In this document: positions 16,750-53,154 of the stretch, one piece after another | How positions within the stretch are numbered: the first letter of the stretch is position 1 | Layout: the number at the start of each line of letters is the position of its first letter | Notes under the pieces: generated by a model | Database searches by the model: none | What the model was told of the DNA's origin: nothing | What the model saw: only the letters and a program-made list of their open reading frames with translations | Translations under genes and position numbers: made by a program | Assembly: GCA_963691705.1 (NCBI GenBank) | Contig: OY829538.1 | Location: 81,102,781 to 81,166,780 of the forward strand | Reading direction: 5' to 3' | Source: Viola odorata | Taxonomy: Eukaryota; Streptophyta; Magnoliopsida; Malpighiales; Violaceae | DNA length: 64,000 nt

Positions 16750-16844
16750 CTCTCTCTGGTCTCCAAAGAACGTCGTTTACTATTCCAGCTGCATTGAAAT
16801 GCGTGTCAGAATAGTAAACGACATTCTTTGGAGACCAGATGGAG
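16750..16844. mobile_element. Stowaway-like MITE (95 bp), near-perfect hairpin
   Basis: Starts CTCTCTCTGGTCTCCAAAG and ends CTTTGGAGACCAGATGGAG. The arms pair over roughly 35 bp with only a few mismatches around a short loop. TA dinucleotides flank both sides (16748-16749 and 16845-16846), as expected for Tc1/mariner-type Stowaway elements. There is no coding capacity. Confidence 0.75.
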
Positions 16845-17292
16845 TATGTTTATTTACTCGATATAAGTTTAATCGAATTTGACTCATTATTCCTTGGTTA
16901 ATATAAAATATAAACTGTTGTATAATGAAGTTTAATCAACAAAGTATGAATTTAACTCATGTTTTCAAACAAAACGAATTCAACTATACTTAAAACTCGA
17001 CTCATTATGTAATGAACTCCATTAATAAGTTTGAGTTTTATTTGTATGAATTTTAATGATTTATGATTTATTAACAGATAATCTTATTTGAAATGAGCTA
17101 TATTATACTTAAAAAATACCATTAAAACCTATGGGCTCTACTCTTGGGTTGGATGTTTTTTATCAAATTGGGTTGGGCTTTATTTACGATTTTTATCCAC
17201 AAAAAATTGCTTTACTTATATGAAACAAAAATACTACTACTAAAAATACCCATCCGTAACTTATAAGGGAATCATAACCGTTCGGATGCTAA

Positions 17293-25145: not shown

Positions 25146-25686
25146 AAATTAAGATAGTATTAAACTTGATAGTGTATTTCACACAAATTATTGACATATT
25201 GGAAGAAATTAAACTGATTCATAAATATTATGTCATTGTGTTTTTATAGTGGATTGGAAGAAATTAAACTCTATTTCACCAAGTTAATGAGGGTAAAAAA
25301 AAATTGTCCCTCGTTAGCCAGTGATCACTCATGTAATTATTTTTAGTTCATAATTTGTTAAGGTACTCCCTGTCAATGTTGGTATGGTTGTAATTTATTC
25401 TGTTTTTTATACTCGAGCTTAAAATTTATATTTAAAAATAGATGAAAATATTATTTTTCAAACTCGAATACGAGCACCTCTCGATAAGTTAAAACAGAGT
25501 TTTTGATTCCATTTTTTGAAACATGAAGCGAAGGGCTATTTTTTTTTTGTCCCTTCTACGTTACATTTTGATGAAGCATACGTTAGGAGATGTTATATTC
25601 TAGAAATGTAAAAAGTCCCTTTTGTATAATAAGGGAAACTAAATATACAAATACCGAAACATTATACTATATCTTAAAATGTATGT
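25146..25686. other. Intergenic, 3' of NIP copy 2
   Basis: AT-rich; holds the 3' UTR region of the right aquaporin gene. No gene or element supported. Confidence 0.4.
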
Positions 25687-30800: not shown

Positions 30801-31008
30801 TTGAATTTAAATTCGAGACTATTGATATTTTTATCACCGGAAAAATAATAAATAAATTTATTATATAAAGTTGAAATAGGATATAAGCATGCAAAATCAA
30901 CCTACCACTAGTAAGTTAGTAACCCATTAAGTGCCACTTAAACATGTGCTTTTCTTTAGCATTGCACGCTCGTTAGACTAAGTCGCTAAAATCAGTTTCT
31001 TTTGGAAA
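27842..31008. other. Gene-poor intergenic region
   Basis: About 3.2 kb without a supportable gene. It contains the upstream region of the right aquaporin gene and then AT-rich sequence with poly(A)/poly(T) tracts. The segment 29830-29990 is less AT-rich (TTCACTCCTTCAAGGAAGGAG and following), but encodes nothing recognisable. Confidence 0.45.
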
Positions 31009-32191
31009 TTTCTAAAACCTTAATTAGTCAAAAAGGCAAATCATTATTGGGATGAACATTTCAGGATAGCTATTCCGACCATATAGTTTATTAATTGTCT
31101 TATTAATAGTAAAAATATGAATAAAATCTCGAGTTAAAATCTCAACCGGCCACCTATACAAATTAAAATTAAAATTGGAACTCCTCTGCCAAATTCTAGA
31201 ATTGAACTTGAGGCAGTAAAAATTAGAAGTAAACTCTCAACATTTGCTTGCATGATTATTATTAATTAATTATATATATATGTCACTAAATAAAGTATGC
31301 TTTTGTTGTATGTCACTAAAAGTTTTTTGTTCTGTAATTTTCAGAGATACTAAAAGGATCTTTGATTTCACATTGACTTGCACACATTTTTCTACATTAA
31401 AATAGTTTCTTGTTCTTGCAGAAATCAAGGACAGGATAAAGAGAAAGGCCTGCCAAAATTAAAGGAGAGCAGGTAGGAAGTTTGATCACAAATAGGGTTT
31501 TATTATTTAAGATTATGTCCAATCTGCTAGCACATTTAACTCGACCCGTTTAATTAACCAACCAACCAACTAACCTATTTGATCCGAATTGTAAGATGGT
31601 TGAATTGATTCACGAGTCTTATTTTCTTAAACTAAATACAACTTGGACCGGTTAATTTCTTTATCTAACAGAAAGATTTAAATTTGATTCTCATCTTCTC
31701 TCATATCATTTCTTTGTGCCCTAATTGCAAGCGGGAAACAAAGCCTCTTGTAAATCAATGAGCGGTGACACTTCCTTTACTCGTGGAAACAAATGCTTAA
31801 AAGGGCATTTTTGCAATTTTTTATATAAAAAAAAAATTATTTATTTATTTTATGTACTTGGGTGCTCTTTTTTCTCCAGAATATTAGTTTCTTATGAGTT
31901 GCCTCTCTTCTTCTTCTTATTTAGTCATCATTAATTTTGTTTCATGTCTCCCAAAAAATCATTGTTTTGTTTCTTGATACTTCTCATTGTGCTTATGCTC
32001 CAGATTAGTGGACTGGAGATTGTCTTTGAGGTGGTGAATATGGGCCGGCAGCCACCTGACCCTACATGATTTAACTCAAAATAAATAGCCTATAAAAAAT
32101 ACTCAAAATAAATATAGTTAATTTTTTTTTCCCGGATGTTCTTCAAATAAAACTAATTTAGTTCGAGTCTTATTTTCGGATTCTCAAAAAG

Positions 32192-32440
32192 AAAAAATTG
32201 AGGCATTCATTGAGTGATGGGAAATTCAGTGTCGTAGCTCCTCATCCATATGACGGGGATTTGGTGTACTTGAGGCTCGATAATATCATCACTTTGTGCA
32301 ACTTAGAAACTACAGAGCTACATGTAGTTGCTGCGTTTGATATACCACTCTCCAGGGTATTTGCTTATCTTGATACTTTTGGCTACCCTATTGTGACTCC
32401 TTGGTGGCCTACACCCATTCTTCCACTACAACAACACTAG
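32192..32440 (+). pseudogene. 3' fragment of an F-box gene
   Basis: Encodes DGKFSVVAPHPYDGDLVYLRL...YPIVTPWWPTPI, the C-terminal end of the At5g07610-like F-box family found next door, then a stop at 32438-32440. It is essentially identical to 41157-41405. The F-box domain and most of the gene are missing because copy A has lost the stretch corresponding to 39439-41156. It has no start of its own and is a gene remnant. Confidence 0.85.
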
Positions 32441-33256
32441 GAGGAGTCTAGGAAGGAGGCGTGTTTTTGGGTTTTTGGGTTATGGTTTCTGTTTGTTTTG
32501 CTCGTATCTGACTGGAATTATGTACAGACAAACCTTGGTACGTAGATAAGTAAAATGCATTACAAACTGTTTTTACCACTTGGAGGAAATGCATCTCTTG
32601 GTACATTAGCGAATCTTGTTTTTCGAAACAGAAATTATTCACTCTGGATAATTTCAGTTCACCACCAATCTACTGTTACCGTTCTTATCCGATTTAGTAC
32701 GTGCCTGCTTCCTCTTTCCCTCCAAAACATTAGTTAGTTTACCAAGTTACCTCTCTTTTTCTTCATGATCATAATAATAATCGTCAGATTCGTTCGCTGT
32801 AATCTTGTTTCTTCTTTTTAAGGGTTTCGGCCTCTCATTTTAGAGCTTTGGTGAACCCAAACCTACTAAAAATATGTAGTGCTTATTAAATTTTTATTAT
32901 AATATATATTTTTTAATTCATTTCACAAACTAAATACTTTTTTCTCTTAACTTTATTAGTATTTTTTAATTATTTTGAGATATTGCTCCTCTGTCTTGGG
33001 TTCTTATTGTTTTGGACTAAGATGGGATCTTCTTGTATTTGGGCTTCTTTTCCTAATGGGCCGTACTTTTTTATTCGTCACTCCTGCATGAGCTGGGCTT
33101 AACGTATGTACTTCGTTTTGCTTCAATGGAATTATATAATTCAGATAAAATAATAAATAATAAATCCAGTGCATAAGGAAGCTAAAAGAAACCAACACTC
33201 CCATTTCTCCTTTCAAAAAAAAAAAACACTCCCATTTCTTCTTGTTTCTTCGTCAG

Positions 33257-33264
33257 AACCCTAA
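33257..33264 (+). promoter_or_regulatory. Telo-box-like AACCCTAA upstream of the F-box gene
   Basis: AACCCTAA lies 32 bp before the ATG at 33296. Telo-boxes near plant transcription starts are known, but one copy is weak evidence. The same motif precedes the copy-B gene at about 42222. Confidence 0.3.
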
Positions 33265-33295
33265 TTATCATTTCACTCTTTGATTATCATCAGTA

Positions 33296-34753
33296 ATGGC
33301 CGATCATGGCGCGCCAAGCGACGCCATTGTTTCCACCCTTAGCCCTCAGAATCGTCACCGGAGGAGAAGATCAGAACAAGATTCATCTTCAAAGTCGTCT
33401 CTTACCGATTTGGGGGACGATTTATTGATGGAAATTCTTCAACGGCTGCGTACTGCAAAAGACTCGTTTCTTTGCTCATCGGTGTGCAAGAATTGGTACG
33501 ATATCATCTTTAGTCCCCGTTTTATTAGCCGATTCGTAACCTGTCATGCCAATCGTGTTGCTAGGAAGAACTACAGTAGTATTAGTTTGGGTGGATTTGA
33601 AAGTAGTATTTCTCTTGTGATACGGAATCGAGATTCTACGAACGAAGCTATTATACTCCCTGAGAACCCTCTCTCTGAATTTCAGACCTTGGATTTTACA
33701 AGTGTTTGCGAAGAAATTATGTGGGTTCGTATATTGTCTTCTTGCCACGATTTACTATTGTGCATAACATCGATTGAGCAGGGGCTTACGTTCTTCATTT
33801 GCAATCCCGTAACAATGAAAGGATTTTGTCTCTCTCTGCCCAAATTTGTGGAAGCATTCAACCGTTACGACGATAACCCTTTTGCTCTCGTGCTTGAACC
33901 TTACTGCTCTAGGGATTCACAGGGAGGGTGCATTCTAAATGCTGGATTTAGGTATCGAATCGTGCATGTTGACTCACATGAGTTACATGATAGTTCTACA
34001 CATTTACCGATAGAGATTTATTGCTCTGAGAGTGGGGAATTTATAGAGGATTCCTTGTTTGGTGAAGAATTTATGGAAGATGTATGCAGCAACCTTGTTG
34101 TGTACAATGGTAAGGTGCATTGGTGTAATGGGTGGAGTATTCTCGCTTATGATCCCTTTCGCATTAGAATTGATGGCATAAAAGAGGACAACACAGAAGC
34201 GGATGCTATAGGAGACCGTTGTTTCATCATTAAGTGTCCTGACTCTGTAAGAGAGAACCACAATTATACTGCTTCTTACAAACTTGGAGTATGTCGAGGA
34301 CTTTTGCGGTTGATTCATGTGGAATTTATCAACTCATCACCTAGGACCTTGACGGTCTGGGATTTGGAAGATTACAACCGAGGTAAATGGAGTGTAGAGC
34401 GCAAGTTTTGTCTGAACTCATTGGTTCCCGATGATCATCCACTTTCTGAAACATTGGAAGAGTCTTTGAATGAGAACTACCGTTTGTATGAGGATTTCGT
34501 GTACTTGAGCTTCAGTGTTGTAGCTCCACATCCATGTGATGAGGATTTGGTGTACTTGAGCTTCAATGGTATCGTCAGTTTGTGCAACTTAGAAAGGAAA
34601 GAGCTCAATGTAGTTGCTGAGTTTTCAAATCGTCGTGTAGTTGCTGAGTTTGCAAATCGTAGTCTTGACGACATAGGGAATGATGTGTTTGATAGAAATG
34701 GCAACCCTATTGTGATTCCTTGGTGGCCTACACCCATTTCTTCACTCCGATAA
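33296..34753 (+). CDS. F-box protein, At5g07610-like, intact copy
   Basis: Intronless frame of 485 aa. The F-box (about residues 34-80: LTDLGDDLLMEILQRLRTAK...SVCKNWYDIIFSPRFISRF) would bind an SKP1-like adaptor to form an SCF ubiquitin ligase; the rest is an F-box-associated region ending YPIVIPWWPTPI-like (NPIVIPWWPTPISSL). The substrate is unknown. The start is MADHGAPSDAIV, shared by all three copies in this block. Near the C-terminus a short internal duplication is visible (VYLSFSVVAPHP/VYLSFNGIV; VVAEFSNRR/VVAEFANRS), absent from the copy-B paralogue. This is the only intact member of the array, flanked by broken ones. Plant F-box genes of this type evolve by rapid birth and death. Confidence 0.88.
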   Translation: MADHGAPSDAIVSTLSPQNRHRRRRSEQDSSSKSSLTDLGDDLLMEILQRLRTAKDSFLCSSVCKNWYDIIFSPRFISRFVTCHANRVARKNYSSISLGGFESSISLVIRNRDSTNEAIILPENPLSEFQTLDFTSVCEEIMWVRILSSCHDLLLCITSIEQGLTFFICNPVTMKGFCLSLPKFVEAFNRYDDNPFALVLEPYCSRDSQGGCILNAGFRYRIVHVDSHELHDSSTHLPIEIYCSESGEFIEDSLFGEEFMEDVCSNLVVYNGKVHWCNGWSILAYDPFRIRIDGIKEDNTEADAIGDRCFIIKCPDSVRENHNYTASYKLGVCRGLLRLIHVEFINSSPRTLTVWDLEDYNRGKWSVERKFCLNSLVPDDHPLSETLEESLNENYRLYEDFVYLSFSVVAPHPCDEDLVYLSFNGIVSLCNLERKELNVVAEFSNRRVVAEFANRSLDDIGNDVFDRNGNPIVIPWWPTPISSLR

Positions 34754-34847
34754 GAGACATGTATTTCTCTTGGTTTATGGTTTTTGTATGAAACCTATAT
34801 TTTGTATTATGTTTTTACCACTACTGTAGTTCATCACTCCTTACTTT

Positions 34848-35000
34848 ACTAGCCGATTCCTAACTTATCATGCCAATCATGTTGCTAGGAAGAACTACAG
34901 AGTGTAATTTTGATGGTTTTGAAAACGGTATCCCTGTTGTCGTGATGAAACTAGATTCTTGTCCTGAAGCCATTATATTCCCCAATATATTCTCTCTTTA
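34848..35000 (+). pseudogene. F-box gene remnant
   Basis: Encodes, with interruptions, SRFLTYHANHVARKNY and then DGFENGIPVVVMK...PEAIIFPN. This aligns with the segment just after the F-box in the neighbouring genes (ISRFVTYHANHVANRN...ILPRNPF). No start and no frame; a short relic of another family member. Confidence 0.7.
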
Positions 35001-35122
35001 TAAATAGATAGATATAGGAAAAGGGTTGTGTTCTAAATGCAGTTGGAAAGTTATAAGTAACGCCAAAGGATAAAAACCAAATGATTTTCTATACGTTGTG
35101 ATATGATAGATGAAATCAATGC

Positions 35123-35160
35123 CACGTGTCCGCAATTTCAGGAATCCATTCCTATAAATA
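35123..35160 (+). promoter_or_regulatory. G-box and TATA box of the secreted-protein pseudogene
   Basis: CACGTG at 35123-35128 and CTATAAATA at about 35152-35160, 40-48 bp before the ATG at 35201. The same pair is preserved in copy B at about 43602-43641. The promoter therefore survives although both genes are broken. Confidence 0.5.
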
Positions 35161-35200
35161 CTTCAACATTTTGTGCACATCCTATAACCTGATTAACACA

Positions 35201-37166
35201 ATGGAGAAACTGATAAAGAATTCAATTAGTAGTTTCTTTCTTGTTCTTGGTTTGGTTTTAGTTTCAGGATTTTTACTTGTTAGAGCTCAAGAAGATGAGT
35301 ATGTATCTGTGGTAGGTGATCCAGGAATGCAAAGAGATGCTGCTAGGCTGGCAATAGAGTCATGGAATCAGTGCAATGAGGTAGGAGAAGAAGTTCCTGG
35401 CATGGGTAGCCCTCGAGCTGCAGATTGCTTCGACATATACAAAGCTTTTCCCGAGCGAAAAAGTAAGATTGTTTGATCTTTCTTTCCCCTTGTTTGATGC
35501 ATTTTTCTGCAAGAAGATGTGTTTGTTTCGTTTATTGAACATTTTTAGTTGTTTCTTGCGAAATTTGATGCCTGAAAAGTTTCAGAAAGCTGTGTTTATT
35601 TCATTTATTGAACTTTTTTCTGATAGGCGGAGGTGAGACTTGAACCATATCGAACCTTTATCAATAATGTCTTGTTTGAACTGCATTTTTTTGTTTTTCT
35701 ACTGACCTCCTTTCTTCCTGTTTGTAATATAGACAAGAAGTGTGCTCTCTGCCATTTGGTGCCTCATGTGTTGATCCATAGAGTGACAGAACAGGACAAC
35801 AAGTTAGGAGTTGGAGACCCTTTTCTTGGAATTCAACTAGAATCCTTATTCGATCCGGATCTCTATGCAGCGAACATGGAGATCTATTTAGGGTCAAAAT
35901 GTCAGGTTGATGACACCCCAAATCCATGGCATTTCTGGATGATCATGCTCAAAAGTGGCGACATGGACACTTCTGCAGCAAAGTGTCCTCATAACGGTCG
36001 CCGGCTCTGGCCTTACGGTTATGATGGTAGGTTCCCTTGTTTTGGAAAAGGGTGCATGAATCAACCATCAATCCTCCATGATTATACCACGTTGCATGGA
36101 GATAACAGGACCTCACTCAAGGGAAGATTTTATGGATCATGGGACTTGGATGCCGACTTGACAAATGGATCAATGGACAACATTTCTTACCATTCTGTTA
36201 CTTGGGAGAAGGAACTTGGACAAGGAAGTTGGGTTTTTCATCATATTTTAAGGACATCAACTAACTATCCATGGCTGATCCAACCGGCGGAGTTTCGGGT
36301 GGTTATCATTATTCGACGAGAGGAATGTTAAAACATGCGAGTCCTTTTTTCTCCCTTCTTATACCTAATTATTCTGTGATTTAAGTCGTTAATGCAGTTT
36401 ATTTAACGAAAGTACTAAAATAATGCAGTTACCGGAGTAGCCGAACTTTAAGGTCAGGTTTAAAATCCAAGGTGGTGGTAGTAGCAGTCAATTCTACCTG
36501 ATGGATATTGGTAGCTGTTGGAAGAACAACGGACAGCCTTGTGATGGAGATGTAACTACCGACGTCACTAGATACGGTGAAATTATCATAAATCCAAACA
36601 CTACTTCTTGGTGTAATCCAGGTAACCTACATCTATGCCCACCTTACCATACATTCCCCGACGGAACTCGAGTCCATCGCAACGACACTGGTCAATACCC
36701 TTTTGCAGCTTACCACATGTATTGTTCTCCAGGAACCGGAGAATATCTTGAGGCTCCTTATAATCTGTGTGATCCATATAGCAACTCTCAGGCTCAGGAG
36801 ATTCTGCAGATACTGCCGCATCCAGTTTGAGGCGATTATGGATATCCTACCGAGCAAGGTGGAGGTTGGATTGGCGATCCAAGAACATGGGAGCTTGATG
36901 TTGGGAGGTTGTCAGAATCACTTTACTTTTACCAGGCAAGTTGAAGTTGGTAAAATTTTGATACTTTTTTTCCCCGATAAGTGGAGAGCCTCGAACAGAA
37001 TCCTACTGGTACTAACATAGTTGTTTTTTTAATTTCTGCATGATCCTGGAACTCCACTAGGAGACAATGGAGGTCTATTGATTTGGGAACAGAAATTTAC
37101 AAAGATCCTAACCAAGTTGCGGAATGGACTGTCAGTGATTTTGACATCCTCATTCAGAAACAATGA
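35201..37166 (+). pseudogene. Large secreted plant protein of unknown function, broken copy A
   Basis: Exon 1 (35201-35462) encodes a signal peptide (FFLVLGLVLVSGFLLVRAQ) and a conserved start. Exon 2 begins at 35733 (phase fits: KKCALCHLVPHV) and runs to about 36330. Exon 3 is 36429-36935 and the last exon about 37042-37166, ending at TGA. The family is Cys- and Trp-rich and I know it only as uncharacterised (possibly DUF7705; not certain). Defects: a frameshift at about 36265-36275, where two short repeats of GCTGAT seem to have recombined; an in-frame TAG at 36438-36440; an in-frame TGA at 36828-36830 where HPV(W)GDYGYP expects Trp; a lost acceptor (CTGCAT for CTGCAG) at about 37040; and a frame change near 37068. 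Not functional as a full-length protein. Confidence 0.8.
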
Positions 37167-37564
37167 TCGGCGACAGGATGCAAATTTTGTTTCTTGACCA
37201 GAGATTTAGGATTTTAAGGAAGATAGAGTTTAAGTTTAGGAAGACAGGGTTAGTATGTATAAATTAGCTAGTGCCTGGAAACAAATTTCAGGCTTTCTTT
37301 CTCCAGCTAAATCAGGGATTTCTATCCTATGTATTGCTCTTTCTGTGTGCAAACAACCATGGATATGATTCAGTTAACTATGGAACTGAAGTCTAGACAT
37401 CTTTGATCTAGTGATGATATGATTCAGTTAAGACTAGACTACAAGTTGAATAAACATGCAACTATCGCAGAGGATAAGAAAAAAACAGAACAGAAAGAAC
37501 AGAAAATCGGTACTAAATTTGATCCTTGAAGTAAGCATTATTGTTCTGCAAAAGTTCTTTTCAT

Positions 37565-37865
37565 TTACCTGGGTCCTGATAAAATAGATGGCAGTAACGG
37601 GGCTGTTTCGCCTGGGTCTGCCTCACTTCTTATTGCAGCCATTGTTGTTGGGTTATGGATGCTAAAGTCTAGGTCAGCCCCAACATCCATCTTGCCTTCT
37701 AAAACTGAAACCACACTGTGCATTGTAGGTCTCCTGGTGAAATCACTCTGTAGACACCAAACCGCAGCTTTCATAGTTTCTGCAGTTTCTAATCCGTGCA
37801 GTTGCATATCCTCACTGAATTCGTCAACCATATCAGTCAATAGAGACTCTTCTGCCTTTCGGCCC
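37565..37865 (-). pseudogene. C-terminal fragment of an S-domain (SD-2 type) receptor kinase
   Basis: Encodes MQLHGLETAETMKAAVWCLQ...RRPTMHSVVSVLEGKMDVG and a tail ending ILSGPR before the stop at 37565. This is the kinase subdomain XI and C-terminal tail of a G-type lectin receptor kinase (WCLQ-RRP-VLEG pattern). The kinase body, TM and lectin domains are absent. The fragment stops abruptly at the repeat at 37865, so a duplication or deletion breakpoint cut it. Its minus orientation is opposite to all genes around it. Confidence 0.8.
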
Positions 37866-37950
37866 GTTTAATTAACCAACGGACTAACGTGTTTGATCCG
37901 AATTGTAGGATGGTTGAATCGATTCACGAGTCCCATTTTCTTAAACTAAA
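37865..37950 (+). repeat. Third partial copy of a spacer sequence
   Basis: CCCGTTTAATTAACC...ACTAAATACAACT also occurs at about 31546-31640 and 38795-38883. The copy here lies outside the two main duplication units, at the breakpoint with the kinase fragment. Confidence 0.75.
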
Positions 37951-38491
37951 TACAACTCGGGTTAAAATCTTATTAATTGGGATGAACATTTCTAAAACCT
38001 TAATTAGTCAAAAAGGCAAGTCATTATTGGGATAAACATTTCAGAATAGCTCCGATCATATAGTTTATTAATTGTCTTATTAATAATAAAAATATCAATA
38101 AAATCTCGAGTTAGAATCTGGCCGCCTATAAAAATTAAAATTAAAATTGGAACTCCTCTGCCAAATTCTAGAATTGAACTTGAGGCAGTAAAAATTAGAA
38201 GTAAACACTCAACATTTGCTTGCATGATTATTATTAATTAATTATATATAAATGTCACTAAATAAAGTATGTTTTTTTTTTTTGTATTTCACTTTTGTAT
38301 GTCACTAAAAGTTTTTTGTTCTGTAATTTTTAGAGATACTAAAAGGATCTTTGTTTTCACATTGACTTGCACACATTTTTCTACATTAAAATAGTTTCGT
38401 GTTCTTGTAGAAATTAAGGACAGGATAAAGAGAAAGGTCTGCCAAAATTAAAGGGGAGCAGGTAGGAAGTTTGATCACAAATAGGGCTTTA

Positions 38492-38751
38492 CTCCCTCCG
38501 TCCTCAAAACCTTGTCTTTCTCGCATCCCAATATTCAGTAGGGAACGCATATCGAGGAGGTCGGATGAGGCACTATTTGACCCCAAAAAAATCCGAAACT
38601 TTTTGTGAACATACGTTAATCCTTAACGTACTTCCCAGAAAAAATTTAGGGCAAAATTGTCTCAAATAGTGCGTCTGCCGGCCGTTTTAAGCTACGTGCC
38701 GAAACAGTAAAAGCAAAAGCTAAAACGACCTCATTTTGAGGACGGAGGGAG
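38492..38751. mobile_element. Stowaway-like MITE (260 bp) with a paralogous empty site
   Basis: Begins CTCCCTCCGTCCTCAAAA and ends TTTTGAGGACGGAGGGAG, the typical Stowaway terminus. TA flanks both sides. In copy A the matching position reads GGGTTTTATTATTTAAG with a single TA, which is the uninterrupted target site at about 31496-31512. The insertion therefore happened after, or in only one of, the duplicated segments. No coding capacity. Confidence 0.92.
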
Positions 38752-40019
38752 TATTATTTAAGACTATGTTCAATCTGCTAGCCCATCTAACTCGACCCGT
38801 TTAATTAACCAACCAACCTGTTTGATCTGAATTGTAAGATGGTTGAATCGATTCACAAATCTCATTTTCTTAAACTAAATACAATTAGGGCCGGTTAATT
38901 TTTTTATCTAACAGTAAGATTTAAATTTGAGTTTCATCTTCCCGGTATCATTTCTTTCTGCCCTAATTGCAAGTGGGAAACAAAGCCTCTTGTAAGTCAA
39001 TCAGTGGTGACGCATCCTTTACTTGTGGAAACAAATGCTTAAAAGGGCATTTTTGCAATTTTTATATAAAAAATAAATATTTATTTATTTGATGTACTTG
39101 GGTGCTCTTTTTTCTCCAGAATATTAGTTTCTTATGAGTTGCCTCTCTTCTTCTTCTTATTTAGTCATCATTAATTTTGTTTCATGTCTCCCAAAAAATC
39201 ATTGTTTTGTTTCTTGATACTTCTCATTGTGCTTATGCTCCAGATTAGTGGACTGGAGATTGTCTTTGAGGTGGTGAATATGGGCCGGCAGCCACCTGAC
39301 CTTACATGATTTAACTCAAAATAGATAGCCTATAAAAAATACTCAAAATAAATATAGTTCTTTTTTTTTTATCCCGGGTGTTCTTCAAATAAAACTAATT
39401 TAGTTCGAGTCTTATTTTCGGATTCTCAAAAAGAAAAAGTTATACACTACTCTTGGTTTTTCATCTCAGCATGTACACGAGAATCCCCCGACTAATAAAA
39501 TTGTTACATGTAGATACTAAGTGGCTACAGCCTACACATAATAAGATTGACAAAAATTGAAATTTTAAAATTTTAAAAACTTAGGGTGAACCCACAATAT
39601 ATTTGTTTATATGTAACCATCAATTAATGACGTGACATAATTTTATTAGTTGGACGATCTTTGTGTACATGTTGAGATATCCTTGTATACATGTTGAGAT
39701 TGAAATTCAGAGTAGTGCATAAGTTCTCCTCAAATATTGGTGGCTTTCCCCGCATAATTTTCTTCATTCCTAAAATTAAATAAAATAGTCCTTTTGAAAT
39801 AAATTCATGTTATTAAAATAATTAAATCAAAATAAAATTGTATAAATAGATTTTTCTACATTGCTTTTCCTAATTATTTTTTCCCAAAATAGTTTATTTT
39901 TTAAAACAAATTAGAAAATAATAAGGATAGACTAAATCCTAAATCCTCAGTTGACTTTTTTTTCCACTCTGCCACCAAGGATCTAAATCCTGAGTTGACT
40001 TTTATCATTTTAGTCAACG
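38752..40019. other. Spacer between MITE and F-box pseudogene
   Basis: Up to 39438 it matches 31505-32196 of copy A. From 39439 on it is unique in this window and AT-rich, leading into the ATG at 40020. No other feature seen. Confidence 0.5.
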
Positions 40020-41405
40020 ATGGCCGATCATGGCGCGCAGAGAAACGCCCTCGTCTTCATCCCTAGCCCTGAAAAGCATCTCCAGATGAGGAGATTAGAT
40101 CGAATTTCGTCTTCAGAGCGCTCTCTTAGCGACCTGGAGGACGATTTATTGATTAAAATTCTCCAACGCCTCCCTACTGCAAAAGACGCGTTTCTCTGCT
40201 CGTCGGTGTGCAAGCTCTGGTGCGGTATCATCTTCAGTCCCTATTTTATTAGCCGATTCGTAACTTATCATGCTAATCATGTTGCTAATAGGAATGACAG
40301 TAATGGTAATTTGGGTGAATTTGAAAGTAGCATCTCTATTGTCACCAAAGATCCAGATTTTTGGTATAGAGCCATTATTATACTCCCTCGAAACCCTTTC
40401 TCTAGAATTCAGGCTTTAAATTTGATAAGCTTTTGCCTAGGTGGTGAGGGGACTCGGATATTGTCTTCTTGGCATGATTTATTATTATGCGTAGCATCAA
40501 TGGGGGATGAGTACTGTAGGTTCTTCATTTGCAATCCCTTAACAATGCTATCAATTTCCATATTTGTTCCAAAATGCTCTCGTATGTGAACCTTACTGCT
40601 CTAAAGATTCGGAGGGAGGGTGCATTCGAAATGCTGGATTTCGGTACAGAATTGTGTGTGTTAGAGCTGATAAGTTATCTAGCGTGGATTATTTGCCAGT
40701 AGAGATTTATTGCTCCGAGAGAGGGGAACTTATTGAGGATTCTTTGTTTGGTGAAGAATTTTGGAGAGTACACATGTGTACAATGGGAAGGTTCACTGGT
40801 ATACTGGGGGAGTATTGCTGCTTATGATCCCTTCCGCATAGGAGTTGATGACATAAAAGAGGATTCCACAGGAGAGGCTGATGCCATCAGAAAAGAGAAT
40901 GGTTTCACCATCAAGCACTCTGACCAAGTTGTAACAGGTTGAATGCATATTGATGCTCCTTACAGACTTGGAGTATGTCGAGGACATTTGAAGTTGATCC
41001 ATGTGCGGTTTGAGATATTTTACCGCGATGATGCCACAAGGTCATTGATGATTTGGAATTTGGAAGACTATTGAATAGGTAAATGGAGTGTCGAGCGCAG
41101 GTTTTGTCTCGACAGATCAGTGTTCTCCTCCGCTTCCGGTGATCATCTACTTTATGAAAAAATTGAGGCATTCATTGAGTGATGGGAAATTCAGTGTCGT
41201 AGCTCCTCATCCATATGACGGGGATTTGGTGTACTTGAGGCTCGATAATATCATCACTTTGTGCAACTTAGAAACTACAGAGCTACATGTAGTTGCTGCG
41301 TTTGATATACCACTCTCCAGGGTATTTGCTTATCTTGATACTTTTGGCTACCCTATTGTGACTCCTTGGTGGCCTACACCCATTCTTCCACTACAACAAC
41401 ACTAG
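40020..41405 (+). pseudogene. F-box protein gene, At5g07610-like, frameshifted
   Basis: Starts MADHGAQRNALVF and keeps a good F-box (LSDLEDDLLIKILQRLPTAKDAFLCS is at about residues 35-60). The frame then breaks: shift near 40570 (KCS to ALVCEPYC), another near 40750-40800 (EEFWRVHMC against the paralogue's EEFMEDVCS), an in-frame TGA near 40940 and a second near 41071, and a further shift near 41160 before the conserved end YPIVTPWWPTPI at 41405. All pieces align in order to the intact gene at 33296. The 3' end (41157-41405) is the source of the fragment at 32192-32440. Confidence 0.88.
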
Positions 41406-42260
41406 GAGGAGTCTAGGAAGGAGGCGTGTTTTTGGGTTTTTGGGTTATGGTTTCTGTTTGTTTTGCTCGTATCTGACTGGAATTATGTACAGACAAACCT
41501 TGGTACGTAGATAAGTAAAATGCATTACAAACTGTTTTTACCACTTGGAGGAAATGCATCTCTTGGTACATTAGCGAATCTTGTTTTTCGAAACAGAAAT
41601 TATTCACTCTGGATAATTTCAGTTCACCACCAATCTACTGTTACCGTTCTTATCCGATTTAGTACGTGCCTGCTTCCTCTTTCCCTCCAAAACATTAGGT
41701 AGTTTACCAAGTTACCTCTCTTTTTCTTCATGATCATAATAATAATCGTCAGATTCGTTCGCTGTAATCTTGTTTCTTCTTTTTAAGGGTTTCGGCCTCT
41801 CATTTTAGAGCTTTGGTGAACCCAAACCTACTGAAAATATGTAGTGCTTATTAAATTTTTATTATAATATATATTTTTTAATTCATTTCACAAACTAAAT
41901 ACTTTTTTCTCTTAACTTTATTAGTATTTTTTAATTATTTTGAGATATTGCTCCTCTGTCTTGGGTTCTTATTGTTTTGGACTAAGATGGGATCTTCTTG
42001 TATTTGGGCTTCTTTTCCTAATGGGCCGTACTTTTTTATTCGTCACTCCTGCATGAGCTGGGCTTAACGTATGTACTTCGTTTTGCTTCAATGGAATTAT
42101 ATAATTCAGATAAAATAATAAATAATAAATCCAGTGCATAAGGAAGCTAAAAGAAACCAACACTCCCATTTCTCCTTTCAAAAAAAAAAAACACTCCCAT
42201 TTCTTCTTGTTTCTTCGTCAGAACCCTAATTATCATTTCACTCTTTGATTATCATCAGTA

Positions 42261-43234
42261 ATGGCCGATCATGGCGCGCCAAGCGACGCCATTGTTTCCA
42301 CCCTTAGCCCTCAGAATCGTCACCAGAGGAGAAGATCAGAACAAGATTCATCTTCAAAGTCGTCTCTTACCGATTTGGGGGACGATTTATTGATGGAAAT
42401 TCTTCAACGGCTGCGTACTGCAAAAGACGCGTTTCTTTGCTCATCGGTGTGCAAGAATTGGTACGATATCATCTTTAGTCCCCGTTTTATTAGCCGATTC
42501 GTAACCTGTCATGCCAATCGTGTTGCTAGGAAGAACTACAGTAGTATTAGTTTGGGTGGATTTGAAAGTAGTATTTCTCTTGTGATACGGAATCGAGATT
42601 CTACGAACGAAGCTATTATACTCCCTGAGAACCCTCTCTCTGAATTTCAGACCTTGGATTTTACAAGTGTTTGCGAAGAAATTATGTGGGTTCGTATATT
42701 GTCTTCTTGCCACGATTTACTATTGTGCATAGCATCGATTGAGCAGGGGCTTACGTTCTTCATTTGCAATCCCGTAACAATGAAAGTATTTTGTCTCTCT
42801 GTGCCCAAATTTGTGGAAGCATTCAACCATTACGATGATAACCCTTTTGCTCTCGTGCTTGAACCTTACTGCTCTGGGGATTCACAGGGAGGGTGCATTC
42901 TAAATGCTGGATTTAGGTATCGAATCGTGCATGTTGACTCACATGAGTTACATGATAGTTCTACACATTTACCGATAGGGATTTATTGCTCTGTTTGTAT
43001 GAGCACTACTTCAGTGTTGTAGCTCCACATCCATGTGATGAGGATTTGGTGTACTTGAGCTTCAATGGTATCGTCAGTTTGTGCAACTTAGAAAGGAAAG
43101 AGCTCAATGTAGTTGCCGAGTTTTTAAATCGTCGTCTCGACGACATGGACGACATGGGGTATGATGTGTTTGATAGAAATGGCAACCCTATTGTGATTCC
43201 GTGGTGGCCTACACCCATTTCTTCACTCCAATAA
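42261..43234 (+). pseudogene. F-box gene with internal deletion (copy B of 33296-34753)
   Basis: Nearly identical to the intact gene through residue 242 or so (MADHGAPSDAIV to LPIGIYCS). At 42993 about 450 bp present in copy A (34029-34482) is missing, and a few bases after the junction also differ (CACTAC in place of an 18-bp stretch). The frame shifts and stops at 43020-43022, giving 253 aa with a short false tail. The original C-terminal part continues in another frame to a stop at 43232-43234. The F-box domain itself survives, so a truncated F-box-only product is conceivable. Confidence 0.88.
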
Positions 43235-43334
43235 GAGACATGTATTTCTCTTGGTTTATGGTTTTTGTATGAAACCTATCTTTTGTATTATCTTTTTACC
43301 ACTACTGTAGTTCATCACTCCTTACTTTACTAGC

Positions 43335-43485
43335 CGATTCCTAACTTATCATGCCAATCATGTTGCTAAGAAGAACTACATAGTGGTAATTTTGGTGGTT
43401 TTGAAAACGGTATCCCTGTTGTGATGAAACTATATTCTTGGCCTGAGGCCATTATATTCCCCAATATATTCTCTCTTTATAAATA
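43335..43485 (+). pseudogene. F-box gene remnant, copy B
   Basis: Counterpart of 34848-35000, with the same YHANHV-like and ENGIPVVMK-like codons out of frame and a few more differences. Relic only. Confidence 0.65.
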
Positions 43486-43679
43486 GATAGATATAGGAAA
43501 AGGTTTGTGTTCTACATGCAGTTGGAAAGTTATAAGTAACGCCAAAGGATAAAAGCCAAATGATTTTCTATACGTTGTGATATGATAGATGAAATCAATG
43601 CCACGTGTCCGCAATTTCAGGAATCCATTCCTATAAATACTTCAACATTTTGTGCACATCCTATAACCTGATTAACACA

Positions 43680-44325
43680 ATGGAGAAACTGATAAAGAAT
43701 TCAATTAGTAGTTTCTTTCTTGTTCTTGGTTTGGTTTTAGTTTCAGGATTTTTTACTTGTTAGAGCTCAAGAAGATGTGTATGTATCTGTGGTAGGTGAT
43801 CCAGGAATGCAAAGAGATGCTGCTAGGCTGGCAAATAGAGTCATGGAATCTGTGCAATGAGGTAGGAGAAGAAGTTCCTGGCATGGGTAGCCCTCGAACT
43901 GCGGATTGCTTCGACATACAAAGCTTTTCCCGAGCGAAAAAGTAAGATTGTTTGATTTTTCTTTCCCCTTGTTTGATGCATTTTTCTGCAAGAAGATGTG
44001 TTTGTTTCATTTATTGAACATTTTTAGTTGTTTCTTGCGAAATTTGATGCCTGAAAAGTTTCAGAAAGCTGTGTTTATTTCATTTATCGAACGTTTTTCT
44101 GATAGGCGGAGGTGAGACTTGAACCATATCGAACCTTTATCAATAATGTCTTGTTTGAACTGCACTTTTTGGTTTTCCTACTGACCTCCTTTCTTCCTGT
44201 TTGTAATATAGACAAGAAGTTCTCTGCCATTTGGTGCCTCATGTGTTGATCCATAGAGTGACAGAACAGGACAACAAGTTAGGAGTTGGAGACCCTTTTC
44301 TTGGAATTCAACTAGAATCCTTATT
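43680..44325 (+). pseudogene. Secreted plant protein of unknown function, broken copy B (5' part)
   Basis: Same gene as 35201-37166. An extra T in the signal-peptide codons (about 43745-43755) shifts the frame to an immediate TAG. An extra A follows at about 43833, and five bases are missing at 44219-44221 (AAGAAGTTCTCTGCC against AAGAAGTGTGCTCTCTGCC). The gene ends abruptly at 44325, where the palindrome arm starts, so exons 3 and 4 are absent. Clearly dead. Confidence 0.85.
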
Positions 44326-44673
44326 TCGTGTAGTTTCATTTCGTATTTTTATCGCTTACGAGCGAATTTTTATAGACTATATATCAGCCTTTTCGTTTAC
44401 TAATTAATTTGTTTCTACATTTTAGCAATTTTTGGTTCGATTTTTATTCATTTCAGACGAGGATTGCTCGGATCATAGATTGAACCAAATAATATATGTT
44501 CGTCCACTTATCTTCTCCATATTTTTCTTTTCTCAGCACAACCACTGCATTAATACATCCAACCTTTTCCCTCACCTTCAATCTCCATCATTGCACTCCA
44601 AGTACCTTCTCACTCGCCACTTTTTCCTCATCTCCATATATGCATCTCACCTTCTCCCTTCATCCTCAACCTC

Positions 44674-44682
44674 TATAAATAG
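44674..44682 (+). promoter_or_regulatory. TATA box, left palindrome arm
   Basis: TATAAATAG, 277 bp before the ATG at 44951. Conserved in mirror image in the right arm. Confidence 0.6.
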
Positions 44683-44950
44683 CCGAAGAATTCCAACATT
44701 AAAGGGGGAGAAAACATTTTTAATCACTCTCATCCTCCTCAATCGCCACAGCCGAACCATCACCACAAAATCAACCATACTGCCATCACCACCAAACCGC
44801 CACTGCCCAAATCCAAGAAATCTCCACCCTCCTCAATCGGCCAACCACCAAACCGCCACCAAATCGCCTCAACTACCGTCAAACCCAAGATACCATCTCT
44901 CTTCTTATTACAAGCTAGAACCATTTTCTTTCCTTTTTTCGAACAAATCA

Positions 44951-45372
44951 ATGTTGTATGCATTTTGTAGGTGTAATAACTAGCAGGAACCAACTTATCA
45001 AACCTTTAAAGATGGGCTAGATCATGAGCCATGGTTTCGTTGCACTGAATGGAGTTTCTTTTGGCTCTCCATCTACCTATAGGTCTGCTAAACGGGCCCA
45101 AAACGAAGCCGCTAAGGTAGCTTATGAGCAAATTACTCTTGTGTCCAACGCCCCTTGCACCTCTCCGCTTCCAAGGAGAAGGATCAGTATTAGGAGTGCA
45201 GCCAACTGCCCCGGAAGACACCAACGGACCGCTACAGTATGCTATCAATGAGATCACTAATATACGTGCCTCCATCACTGATATGCGTGCCTTCATGGCT
45301 GATATGCGTACTTCCATGGCTGATATGCGTGCCTCCATGGCTCAATTGTACCAAAAAGTTGATGGCCTTGCA
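44951..45372 (+). pseudogene. dsRNA-binding-domain gene, left-arm copy, broken
   Basis: Same gene as the right arm, reading toward the loop. The first ATG of the right-arm copy is missing, so translation would start at MLYAFCRCNN, then hits TAG at 44981-44983 where the right arm has TTG (Leu). Eight bases are also missing near 45044 (GCACTGAATGG against GCACTGTGACAGTTAATGG), shifting the frame. Downstream the coding sequence is otherwise well kept (YRSAKRAQNEAAKVAYEQIT in the relevant frame). It cannot make the protein but is still a good antisense partner for the right arm. Confidence 0.85.
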
Positions 45373-45520
45373 ATCTCCTCTACTGTTACTGCAAGGCCAT
45401 CAACTTTTTGGTGCAATTTAGCCATGGAGTCACGCATATCAGCCATGGAAGCAAGCATATCAGCCATGAAGTCACGCATATCAGCCATGAAGTCACGCAT
45501 ATCAGTGATGGAGGCACGCA
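45262..45520. repeat. 21-bp coding repeats in both arms (MRxxMAD units)
   Basis: Tandem 21-bp units close to ATGCGTGCCTCCATGGCTGA encode the heptad-like repeat DMR(A/D)(S/F)MA. The left arm (about 45262-45345) has four units and the right arm (about 45415-45520, inverted) five, so the arms differ in repeat number. Confidence 0.75.
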
Positions 45521-45851
45521 TACTAGTGATCTCATTGATAGCATACTGTAGCAGTCCGTTGGTGTCTTCCGGGGCAGCTGACCGCACTCCTGATGCTGAT
45601 GCTTCTCCTTGGAAGCGGAGAGGTGCAAGGGGAGTTGGAACAAGAGTAATTTGCTCATAAGCCACTTTAGCGGCTTCATTTTGGGCCCGTTTAGCAGACC
45701 TATAGGTAGATGGAGAGCCAAAAGAAACTCCATTAACTGTCACAGTGCAACGAAACCATGGCTCATGATCTGGCCCATCTTTAAAGGTTTGATAAGTTGG
45801 TTCCTGCAAGTTATTACACCTACAAAATTCATACAGCATTGATTTGGACAT
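45342..45851 (-). CDS. dsRNA-binding-domain protein, right-arm copy, open frame across the palindrome centre
   Basis: 169 aa from ATG at 45849-45851. Residues about 4-72 form a dsRNA-binding domain (SMLYEFCRCNNLQEPTYQTF, then GPDHEPWFRCTVTVNG, then YRSAKRAQNEAAKVAYEQI), closest in pattern to plant DRB proteins (DRB4-like), which assist Dicer-like enzymes. A linker and the DMRxxMAD heptad repeats (possible coiled coil, about 112-148) follow, ending KVDGLA. From residue about 155 the frame passes through the loop and into the left arm read backwards (VTVEEIARPSTFWYN, stop at 45342), so the last 15 residues are an accident of the palindrome and the natural C-terminus is missing. A TATA box lies 278 bp upstream. 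A second dsRBD, usual in DRB proteins, is absent. Expression is uncertain. Confidence 0.65.
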   Translation of the reverse strand: MSKSMLYEFCRCNNLQEPTYQTFKDGPDHEPWFRCTVTVNGVSFGSPSTYRSAKRAQNEAAKVAYEQITLVPTPLAPLRFQGEASASGVRSAAPEDTNGLLQYAINEITSMRASITDMRDFMADMRDFMADMLASMADMRDSMAKLHQKVDGLAVTVEEIARPSTFWYN

Positions 45852-46128
45852 GATTTGTTCGAAGAAAGGAAAGAAAATGGTTCTAGCTTGTAATAAGAAG
45901 AGAGATGGTGTCTTAGGTTTGACGGTAGTTGAGGCGATTTGGTGGTTGAGGCGGTTTGGTGGTTGGCCGATTGAGGAGGGTGGAGATTTCTTGGATTTGG
46001 GCAGTGGCGGTTTGGTGGTGATGATGACAGTATGGTTGATTTGGTGGTTATGGTTCGACTGTGGCGATTGAGGAGGATGAGAGTGATTAAAAATGTTTTC
46101 TCCCCCCTTTAATGCTGGAATTCTTGGG

Positions 46129-46137
46129 CTATTTATA
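46129..46137 (-). promoter_or_regulatory. TATA box, right palindrome arm
   Basis: TATAAATAG on the minus strand, 278 bp before the ATG at 45851; mirror image of 44674-44682. Confidence 0.6.
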
Positions 46138-46568
46138 GAGGTTGAGGATGATAGGCAAGGTGATGGATTGAAGGGAGAAGGTGAGATGCATTGATGGAGA
46201 TGAGGAAAAAGTGGCGAGAGAGAAGGTACTTGGAGTGCAAGGATGGAGATTGAAGGTGAGGGAGAAGGTTTGATGTATTAAATGCAGTGGTTGTGCTGAG
46301 AAAAGAAAAACGTAGTAAAGATAAAGTGGACGAACATATATTATTTGGTTCAATCTATGATCCGAGCAATCTCACCTGAAATGAATAAAAATCGAACCGA
46401 AAATTGCTAAAATGTAGAATAAAATGAAACAAATTAATTAGTAAACAGCAAGCAACGAAAATTCCGATATATAGTCCATAAAAATTCGCTCGTAAGCGAT
46501 AAAAGTTCAAACGTAAAAAATGCAAAAATACGAACTGAACTAAATAAAAATGAAACTACACGAAATAA

Positions 46569-48657
46569 ACATAAAATAAATAGTAAATACACTGAAATAA
46601 TAATAAAAGGGAACGAGATTAAATAAAAACTACCAAGTTGATAACGGAACAAAAAAATATAAAAAGCGGGTAGGTTATGGTAAAAATGTCAAAAGTCGGG
46701 TAGCAACAAAAATATTGCAATTTTGTTGGCTGATTTTTTTAAAAAAATGACAGGTATTTCTTTAAAGAAAAAATGTTGCAATTTGGTTGAGCGAAAATTT
46801 AAGATATGATGCTAGGATGTTTTTGATAATTACTTCATAATTGATAACTAATAATTGCTTTGATTTCCAAAAAAAATTATAAAATGACAACTAAAAAGAT
46901 TTAGAGTAAACATTTTTAATTGTTAATATTCCAAACGTTGGTAATTATATCCGAGCAGCATTTACGCTAATTGGACCGTATATATATAAATAAGTCTAGG
47001 CACTTTACCATTTTTCCGGCCAACAGCTTTTTCATATGGTACCTGCAAACCAATAGCAAACCAAGCAAAGAAAAACAGATAGGGATGACAACGGGTATCC
47101 ATACCCGGATAATCGCCCATACCCATAGCTGTTTGATCGGGTAATACCCAAATCATATCCGATTTGACTGAATGTGGTTTGGATATTACCCATAGCCGTT
47201 CGGGTATGATCGGGTATGATACCTGAAAATACCCGAACGGGTATAACCTTTTTTTTTAAAAAAAATTCACTGCTTCTCCCCTCTCCCGTCCTCACCGCCA
47301 TCACCGCCACCCCATTCCATCCTAGCCTCTTAAACCCAGCACCATCCGAACCACCATCATCACCTCATCCAAACCACCACCTTCGCCGAACCAACAACCA
47401 AATCCTCACCGCCAACCCTCTCGGCCAAACCCATCATCACAACCAAATCCAACACCGAACCACCACCATCTCCCACTGCCGAAACAGCCCACTAAATCGC
47501 CAACCACCTGATTGTACTCCTAGATCTGGTAAGAAGGGATTGGGCTGTTGCAGCTATTGCAAAGAAGGAGGAGGTCGTTGCAATTGGCAGAGCAAGTCGT
47601 GTGGCCGTTGCTGCAGGGCAACCTGCCACTGCTGTTGAGAGGCAACACACTTGGATTTTAAGAAACAATGGTGGGTTTTGAATAGAGATGATGAGATGGA
47701 GTTAATGGATTTTTTTTTTTTTTTTTTGAAGGGGAATGGATTTAGAGAATAAAGGGGAAGATGAGAGAGAGAACAAATGAGACTTTGGTTTCTGAAATGG
47801 ATATTTTTTCTAAAGTACTATAAAAGTTTTCTAAAACAATTTTATTTTTTTAAAAACAGAAAATTGTTTTTTAAAACAAAATACTGTTTTTTACACCAAA
47901 AAACTATTTTTAAACTGACTCAATGTCAAAGTGGGCTCTTCCATAAAGTCCAGTATGGTATTGGGCCTAACCCCTGTAACAAAAAGCAGAAGATCGGTAT
48001 CATACAAAAATGCACAATCTTGTTTTTCGTATTATTTAAATCAAAAAGCTGAATATACATTGTTTGCATCTCCTCAAGGCCTCATTACTGTTTCAGGAAG
48101 AAAACACTCAGGTAGTTAAACTACATTATCCAAGAACTTCATGCATGATGAATAATGCTTCGCAAAATGTTGGAATGAGAGAACCCAACCTGGGATAGAA
48201 GAAGAAGAAGCATGAGAAAAAGTATTGGCTTACAAAAGGATGAGTAATTACAAAAAAAAAACCCAAGGAAGTGAGAGCAAGTCACTCACATCTTCTGTTG
48301 CTTTTGCTTGAATAAAATATTCAATGCAGAAAATAAAAGTAAAAAACTGAGCATGCAAACATTGATATGGAATCATTAGGTTTGAGCAAAAGATAAAAAA
48401 TTATATTAACATCTGCATCACCTCATTACAGGCAAAATATGTAAAAAAAAACTTTCATTTTTCAGACTTGGAGGAATTTTACATGATCAGCATTCCAAAA
48501 TATGCATGACTTCATCTATAATGGTACCATGGAAAAACAGCAAACGATACATTGGGCCTAGATCACAAGCTTTCAACATTTTTGCCAAAAAAAGCACTAC
48601 CAAAAATGGATTTGTGGGCAAATGTAAAATGATAAAGTTCTTTAATTCTCAAACTAC
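46569..48657. other. Intergenic between palindrome and ligase pseudogene
   Basis: Apart from the GGGTA-rich repeat at 47081-47250, there is a C-rich, proline-codon-rich stretch at about 47270-47530 that keeps an open frame without any recognisable domain, and AT-rich sequence to 48657. No gene supported. Confidence 0.45.
47081..47250. repeat. GGGTA/TACCC-rich degenerate repeat
   Basis: Begins AGGGATGACAACGGGTATCC and ends TACCCGAACGGGTATAACC. It is dense in GGGTA, TACCC and CGGGTAT motifs on both strands. Stretches like this are common in plant transposon debris, but no termini or target-site duplication could be fixed, so the class is unknown. Confidence 0.55.
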
Positions 48658-51754: not shown

Positions 51755-52260
51755 TAGTGTTCATCATCATCTTACTACGATTTTCCTGTTCGAGAATCCC
51801 CGTTGAATGTGAAATCTGAGTTAGAATGAACAAATCATTTATGTTAAATTAGTGCGACTAAGTAAAAATAAAGGTAATAAATGTTAAGTTTGCATGTAAA
51901 AATTAAAAAATAAGGATCTTTTATACGTCATTAATAGCTAATTACATCTGTTCCCAGTAATTTAGGCATTAATCTCTCTCTCCTCCAATCATCAAATTAA
52001 GAAATGCAAACTGTTCTAGAAAAACCAGTTGGAGCCAGCCAAATCACTGTAATATCCCTCCCTACTAATTACTGTCCTTAACCAAAATTAAGCATTTTTT
52101 AATTTAAAACTGCACTAGCTTCGGCTCCGAACCTACCAATATTACCGTTACACAGAAGCAAAAATTTAAAATGATAACCCCCTCTCCTCCTCGTCAATCA
52201 TATCCCATAAAACAACACATTTTTCCATTTCCAATTTCCGTCTCTCAGAGAAACCTAAAA

Positions 52261-53154
52261 ATGGTGTCCAGGACACCCAAAAGAACCCCACCAAAATCCA
52301 TCAAAGACCGATCAACCCACCGCCATCGCCGTCGCCCCAAGAATAGATCTTCTCCTATCGCCTCTGCTCTTATCTCCTCCATCAACAAGACTATCTTCAC
52401 CTGCAAGCGCCGTCTCGCCAAGATCTTCACCAAATTGGCCCGGATCAGCACCCCAACCCCGACTCGCAGCCGATACAGAGGCTACAAGAGAATCCCCGAT
52501 ATCCAAATCGAACCCCTTGTGGAGAAGAAAGAGACAGACCCAGAAATCGGAAAAGAAGGAATTTGCAGGGTACTCTGTTTTGAAGATCAAAAGCTACCGC
52601 CTTTGATTTCTCCAACTAAAAAAACAATCTTTCTTGATCTTGATGAGACATTAGTCCATTCCAAAGCAGACCCACCTCCCCAAATGTTTGATTTTGTTGT
52701 GAGGCCAAAGATTGATGGAGAAACCATGAATTTCTATGTGTTGAAGCGGCCAGGGGTTGATGAATTTTTGCAGGCTTTAGGGGCGAAATATGAGGTTGTG
52801 GTGTTCACTGCTGGGTTGAAAGAATACGCGTCCTTGGTTCTTGATAAGCTTGATGTTAATGGAGTGATCACTCGCCGGCTTTACAGGGATTCTTGCAGGC
52901 AGATTGATGGCAAGTTTGTGAAAGATTTGTCAGAGATGGGGAGGGATTTGAACAGGGTTGTGATTGTTGATGACAATCCTAATTGCTACATTTTCCAACC
53001 GGAAAATGCGATTCCGATGAGGCCTTTTACTGATGATCTTGGGGATGTGGAGTTGAAGAAATTGGCTAGGTTCTTTGAAAGATGTGAAAGTTTTGAGGAT
53101 ATGAGGGATGCGGTGAAGCATTTTGTTAGAGAAGAAGGGATGGTGAAAGTGTAA
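52261..53154 (+). CDS. FCP1/SCP-like (CTD small phosphatase-type) HAD phosphatase
   Basis: Intronless, 297 aa from the ATG at 52261 (a longer frame opens at 52171, but AAAATGG at 52258-52264 has the better start context). The N-terminus is basic and Arg/Lys-rich (about 1-75). The HAD fold follows: motif I FLDLDETLVHS (DLDET at 126-130, Asp nucleophile), motif II VFTAGLKEYA (181-190), and motif III/IV with VIVDDNPNCY (about 234-243). These are the residues required for phospho-Ser/Thr phosphatase activity in the FCP1/SCP family, which in eukaryotes often acts on the RNA polymerase II tail; plant members of this group also have other targets. The substrate here is not known. The basic leader could be a nuclear or organellar signal. 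No defect. Confidence 0.9.
   Translation: MVSRTPKRTPPKSIKDRSTHRHRRRPKNRSSPIASALISSINKTIFTCKRRLAKIFTKLARISTPTPTRSRYRGYKRIPDIQIEPLVEKKETDPEIGKEGICRVLCFEDQKLPPLISPTKKTIFLDLDETLVHSKADPPPQMFDFVVRPKIDGETMNFYVLKRPGVDEFLQALGAKYEVVVFTAGLKEYASLVLDKLDVNGVITRRLYRDSCRQIDGKFVKDLSEMGRDLNRVVIVDDNPNCYIFQPENAIPMRPFTDDLGDVELKKLARFFERCESFEDMRDAVKHFVREEGMVKV

Follow-up and report, generated by a model that had tools for sequence, protein, structure and literature searches.

The window (the whole stretch of 64,000 nucleotides analysed here, positions 81,102,781 to 81,166,780 of Viola odorata contig OY829538.1, assembly GCA_963691705.1) carries at 44321..46568 an inverted gene duplication that is real and well resolved; it is of a kind already known but involves an unusual gene, one encoding a double-stranded RNA (dsRNA)-binding domain (dsRBD). 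The anatomy of this palindrome, its junction sequence, the pairing of its arms and the encoded domain were all directly observed. Alignment of the arms indicates that the locus is a partial inverted gene duplication, comprising the promoter region, the presumed 5' untranslated region (5'UTR) and the 5' coding part of the gene. We consider it probable that the locus arose by a fold-back inverted duplication and, if transcribed, would give a hairpin that feeds the silencing of its own gene and of near-identical paralogues. The features on which this proposal draws are as follows.

44321..45372, plus strand: left arm, a decayed inverted copy of the dsRBD gene from its promoter region through the presumed 5'UTR to the 5' coding part (from alignment to the right arm)
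45373..45389, no strand assigned: central loop of 17 nt, the minus-strand reading of which extends the frame of the right-arm gene (from alignment)
45390..46568, minus strand: right arm, which has the same three parts of the dsRBD gene and keeps the frame open (from open reading frame, Pfam and alignment)
44674..44682, plus strand: TATA-box-like TATAAATAG of the left arm (sequence match)
46129..46137, minus strand: TATA-box-like TATAAATAG of the right arm (sequence match)
45257..45342, plus strand: 21-nt tandem repeats of the left arm, encoding 7-residue repeats
45413..45522, minus strand: 21-nt tandem repeats of the right arm, encoding 7-residue repeats and 21 nt longer than the left-arm set
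45342..45851, minus strand: open reading frame (ORF) of 169 codons, with the dsRBD (residues 3-67), a linker, and 7-residue repeats in a long predicted helix (residues 95-160) (from ORF, Pfam and AlphaFold)
43009..44325, plus strand: duplicated segment that takes in the end of an F-box gene plus the 5' part of a DUF7705 gene, ending where the palindrome begins (BLAST, 95.2% identity to 34510-35850)

A repeat search combined with global alignment resolved the palindrome into a left arm of 1052 nt and a right arm of 1179 nt. Aligned with each other, the arms match at 1003 positions and mismatch at 47, and 17 gap events account for a further 131 columns. In a BLAST comparison of the window with its reverse complement (word size 11, E 1e-3, low-complexity filter on), the arm pair scored 2772 bits and just two further pairs, of 102 and 53 nt, were returned; because of this self-match and the presence of only two short other pairs in the window, a chance origin of the palindrome is excluded. 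Hence, the alignment and the self-BLAST bear out the preliminary description, which had proposed a palindrome with arms of about 1.05 and 1.18 kb around a 17-nt loop. Its proposals of a TATA box in each arm and of a dsRBD in the encoded protein also stood, TATAAATAG being present in both arms, at 44674 on the plus strand and at 46137 on the minus strand (sequence matches only), and the ORF of the right arm matching Pfam dsrm with an E-value of 5.2e-12 and 46.6 bits, against a cut-off of 23. The two facing copies of a dsRBD gene that it described are indeed inverted copies, but they are not equivalent, the frame of the domain being open in the right arm alone.

Palindromic chimeras are a known artefact of assembly, and a chimeric inverted read could in principle mimic such a locus. 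We regard this as very improbable, given that the arms of an artefact should be near-identical whereas those observed here differ at 47 sites and by 17 gap events. A transposable element, be it a fold-back element, one resembling a miniature inverted-repeat transposable element (MITE), or a transposon with a captured gene fragment, is likewise an unlikely source of the palindrome. The long inverted repeats and their perfect 21-nt outer end would suit such an element, but no flanking target-site duplication was seen by eye, one end of the palindrome is the end of a local duplicate, and no copy besides the two arms was found on searching the window.

The inequality of the arms is evident from the damage that the left arm displays relative to the right. 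Its first ATG is gone within an 11-nt gap, the edges of which carry a direct repeat of 7 nt, and it has in addition an 8-nt gap, one extra base and an in-frame TAG, with frameshifts as the outcome. Fifteen of the 17 gap events represent sequence missing from the left arm (p 0.002), and 20 of the 29 transitions have A or T on the left-arm side (p 0.06). The loss of the first ATG, the frameshifts, the TAG and the bias in gaps and transitions therefore indicate that the left arm is a pseudogene and the right arm a gene-like copy. It seems that the right arm is the original copy, the remainder of a gene that has lost its 3' part.

The 169-codon ORF of the right arm runs across the loop, its last codons and stop lying in the loop and the left arm; its ending is antisense left-arm sequence, and the gene is without its 3' part. 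An AlphaFold model of the 169-aa protein, computed from the single sequence and confident over approximately residues 101-150 only (predicted local distance difference test, pLDDT, 88-96), has a mean pLDDT of 57.6. The dsRBD part was modelled with a pLDDT below 50, yet the helix-strand-strand-strand-helix order is present. The right-arm frame is also open further upstream, across the presumed 5'UTR (45345-46277, minus strand, 311 codons in total), and this extended frame has no ATG, GTG or TTG ahead of 45851.

This raises the question as to whether the right arm may simply be a functional gene that encodes a small protein with a single dsRBD, with the left arm a mere pseudogene and the palindrome incidental, an explanation that is compatible with the hairpin proposed above and that we nonetheless find doubtful. 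In its favour, the right-arm frame survives in only 5.2% of 20,000 simulations in which the changes are spread evenly over both arms, and synonymous differences make up 4 of 7 in the dsRBD part versus 1 of 14 in the rest of the frame (p 0.025, for a split chosen post hoc). However, neither synonymous fraction is significant alone (p 0.087 and 0.083), and the 21 in-frame differences are distributed over codon positions 1, 2 and 3 as 5, 11 and 5, with no third-position excess. Furthermore, the damage to the left arm could stem from the copying event, and the gene is left incomplete at its 3' side, given that the frame closes within antisense sequence of the left arm. The support for use of the right arm as a protein gene is weak and mixed.

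The pairing potential of the locus is considerable. Taking 44705 and 46106 as start sites, an assumption that places them approximately 30 nt past each TATA-like box, the 1402-nt piece between them folds at -1219 kcal/mol (plus strand) and -1233 kcal/mol (minus strand), while ten of ten random pieces of the window of equal length fold between -285 and -414 kcal/mol (mean -324). It contains 22 uninterrupted paired runs of at least 21 nt, the longest being 72. The folding that had been suggested as a check thus gave a very stable hairpin in either sense, and the locus has the long, near-perfect inverted repeat, foldable as one transcript, that is looked for in an endogenous inverted repeat (endoIR). 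No Rfam family was found in the window at the gathering score, although Rfam may lack a MIRNA of recent origin, and no separate founder gene for the arms was found in the window, the right arm itself being gene-like.

Transcription, processing and silencing at the locus are steps that we infer. Both TATA-like boxes point inward, and transcription begun at either would cross the centre into the opposite arm; the RNA would fold as a hairpin of roughly 670-720 bp, on either strand. If the locus is transcribed, DCL4, DCL2 and DCL3 would be expected to cut this hairpin into small interfering RNAs (siRNAs) of 21, 22 and 24 nt, and these would silence the dsRBD gene itself together with near-identical paralogues.

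As to how the palindrome was formed, the boundary of the left arm is informative. The adjoining DUF7705 copy has its intact counterpart in a region with DUF7705 Pfam matches at 35114-36827, and this intact region and the junction match up to TTATT (at 35850 in the intact region). The right arm, read toward its gene, has the same TTATT at its outer end, but other DNA precedes it there; 5 bp are accordingly common to both partners at the start of the left arm. We propose that, in a local rearrangement, the dsRBD gene was copied back in inverted orientation over its promoter region and 5' part, with a 17-nt turn, by fold-back or template switching, and that the far end of the copy was joined to the duplicated piece of the DUF7705 gene via microhomology of approximately 5 bp. 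The sequence is consistent with either mechanism and with a junction formed by microhomology.

Beside the palindrome, the interval 31008-44325 comprises complex local duplications near the F-box and DUF7705 genes, with blocks of 99.4, 95.2, 93.0 and 91.0% BLAST identity. By its coordinates, the copy at 41156-44325 is without approximately 480 nt found at 34029-34509 and without most of the DUF7705 gene, and no convincing second copy of the remaining DUF7705 region was found in the window.

Some observations weigh against a transcribed hairpin formed in one step. The TATA-like matches are weak evidence of promoters. Because the arms are more diverged (Kimura two-parameter distance, K2P, 0.046) than the adjoining DUF7705 copies (0.025), the palindrome and its junction need not be a single event; the excess lies in transitions (p 0.005) and not in transversions (p 0.49). 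This leaves two readings: a greater age of the palindrome, or faster mutation of its cytosines, as in methylated DNA. C-to-T-type changes between the arms concern 14 of 122 CG and CHG positions versus 15 of 330 CHH positions (p 0.015), but an excess at CG and CHG was also found in one of three other pairs (p 0.04) and was absent in two, the F-box pair lying outside this test. With one of three other pairs showing the same excess, we discarded this footprint as proof of past siRNAs, and the methylation-type signature is only suggestive and is not counted as siRNA evidence.

The same comparisons bear on a second alternative, namely that the palindrome is an inert relic, an inverted duplication without transcription through both arms, or silenced as DNA only, with little or no siRNA and no function. 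We hold this to be possible, if clearly the less probable outcome. The arms differ by 29 transitions and 18 transversions in 1050 sites. Two neighbouring duplicate pairs, taken together, do not differ significantly from them in this respect (p 0.54 for transitions and 0.74 for transversions), and the DUF7705 and F-box pairs are less diverged; this fits a relic, if weakly, the ages of the pairs not being known. Selection to preserve pairing, which we also considered, is not supported by these figures, subject to the same caveat on the ages of the comparison pairs. The erosion of the left arm, which bears 15 of the 17 gap events, and the truncation of the adjoining DUF7705 copy also fit a relic, but both TATA-like boxes and long, perfectly paired runs persist. 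The likelihoods that we attach to the various explanations, including the transcribed hairpin that we favour, are not mutually exclusive.

In order to place the encoded domain, it was compared with the first domains of Arabidopsis dsRBD proteins of solved structure. The first dsRBDs of the plant proteins DRB1 (HYL1), DRB2, DRB3 and DRB4 can all be aligned to the right-arm domain, at 36.5-40.3 bits per domain: DRB2 scored 40.3 bits, DRB4 39.5, DRB3 38.1, and HYL1/DRB1 36.5 and 37.7. The match to Arabidopsis DRB1-4 is distant and about equal, with no clear closest member. An assignment to DRB4 was rejected, since its whole-chain score of 64.2 bits adds two domains, and its best single domain, at 39.5, is level with that of DRB2 at 40.3. 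Membership of the single-dsRBD DRB7 type was likewise rejected, in that 8igd, which we take to be DRB7.2, scored weakly at 17.9 bits against 36.5-40.3 for the first domains of DRB1-4. Two tandem dsRBDs are the usual make-up of the DRB1-DRB4 type. Unlike these proteins, the surviving right-arm frame has a dsRNA-binding domain only once in its 169 residues, followed by the 7-residue repeats. The gene is truncated, however, and its ancestor may have had two dsRBDs.

Relatives of the 169-aa frame were sought in a protein collection, where none was found at E 0.001 among 74 candidates with lengths of 0.55-1.75 times the query; the dsRBD alone, with longer proteins admitted, returned no candidate from the same collection. 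This search needs shared 5-residue words, and distant relatives are missed by it. Plants are present in the collection, the neighbouring phosphatase ORF (52108-53151) having matched 6404 proteins, and among the best 120 of these 6404, Jatropha (70%) and Manihot (68%) lead, with Ricinus, Populus and Salix in the top seven. This ranking points to a plant that probably belongs to Malpighiales. It seems that the dsRBD gene has no close relative in the collection within the admitted lengths, while distant ones can be missed.

These scores affect what the siRNAs might act upon. The preliminary description had inferred a locus that acts on the dsRNA machinery. Its starting point holds, in that an inverted duplication with promoter region folds to a stable hairpin, as in the initial step of MIRNA birth from a duplication with promoter that PMC10004981 describes, but the proposed feedback on the dsRNA machinery is weakened by the distant and even scores to DRB1-4. 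Judged from the Arabidopsis domain scores, siRNAs from the arms would probably differ too much to hit canonical DRB genes. Since the domain is distant from, and equally so to, Arabidopsis DRB1-4, such siRNAs would probably hit only this gene and its close paralogues. The type of product nevertheless makes a feedback loop conceivable. In a most unlikely extension, the encoded protein could attach to the hairpin made at its own locus and so protect it from Dicer, while the siRNAs lower its own mRNA and that of close paralogues, a self-referential loop modelled on the reported sequestration of endogenous inverted-repeat precursors by DRB4 with DRB7.1/DRB7.2 (PMC8138440).

Elsewhere in the window, the two short inverted repeats returned by the self-BLAST lie at 16747-16847 (102 nt, 82%) and at 47192-47244 (53 nt, 83%, with many GGGTAT units); the ends of the former resemble what we take to be a Stowaway-type MITE. 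Diverged tandem gene copies occupy 3-2448 and 8830-11425, with a malectin domain in both and a kinase domain found in the first. Further tandem copies at 20964-22813 and 25686-27834 are 72-83% alike where aligned by BLAST, and 25690-26037 matches the MIP (aquaporin) family.

If transcribed, the palindrome would exemplify, in nature, a gene for a dsRNA-binding protein that has become a source of dsRNA directed against itself, and would make possible a direct test of hairpin feedback on silencing proteins. In any case, it represents an early stage in the birth of small-RNA genes by inverted duplication, at which one arm is still gene-like, the other is decaying and the breakpoint can be read. 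Among the literature matches listed, no title reported an inverted duplication of a DRB gene, by which absence from print is not claimed.

The violet locus can be set beside several known systems. SULF of Antirrhinum presumably originated from an inverted duplication. In the origin of MIRNA genes by inverted duplication of the target gene, the stem of the miRNA precursor is, we assume, far shorter than that of the violet locus, the founder of which is moreover a dsRBD gene. What is shared with this origin (Model 1, Allen et al. 2004, as told in PMC10004981) is the near-perfect hairpin as a predicted substrate of DCL2/3/4; the same article models the birth of small-RNA genes by inverted duplication, with or without promoter, as passing through an early stage processed by DCL2, DCL3 and DCL4. 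SULF is a locus with small RNAs targeting a gene, but the gene concerned is a pigment gene, and the locus has a phenotype (PMC13378536). The Teosinte Pollen Drive hairpin Tpd1 is, like the present locus, a long plant hairpin and possible source of trans-acting siRNAs; it yields demonstrated 22-nt siRNAs against a pollen gene, the target Tdr1, whereas the violet locus is known from sequence (PMC11390486). In Arabidopsis, endogenous inverted-repeat siRNAs arise from very long stem-loops via DCL4, DCL2 and DCL3, and the precursor of one such repeat, IR71, builds up in dcl2 dcl3 dcl4 plants (PMC4687873). Its long, near-perfect hairpin likewise derives from a genomic inverted repeat, while the violet arms, whose hairpin is read from the DNA, hold a protein-coding dsRBD gene. 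Indeed, some large inverted duplications of Arabidopsis are sources of small RNAs, and it has been proposed that close relatives within a family can come under negative regulation by inverted duplications (PMC1820830).
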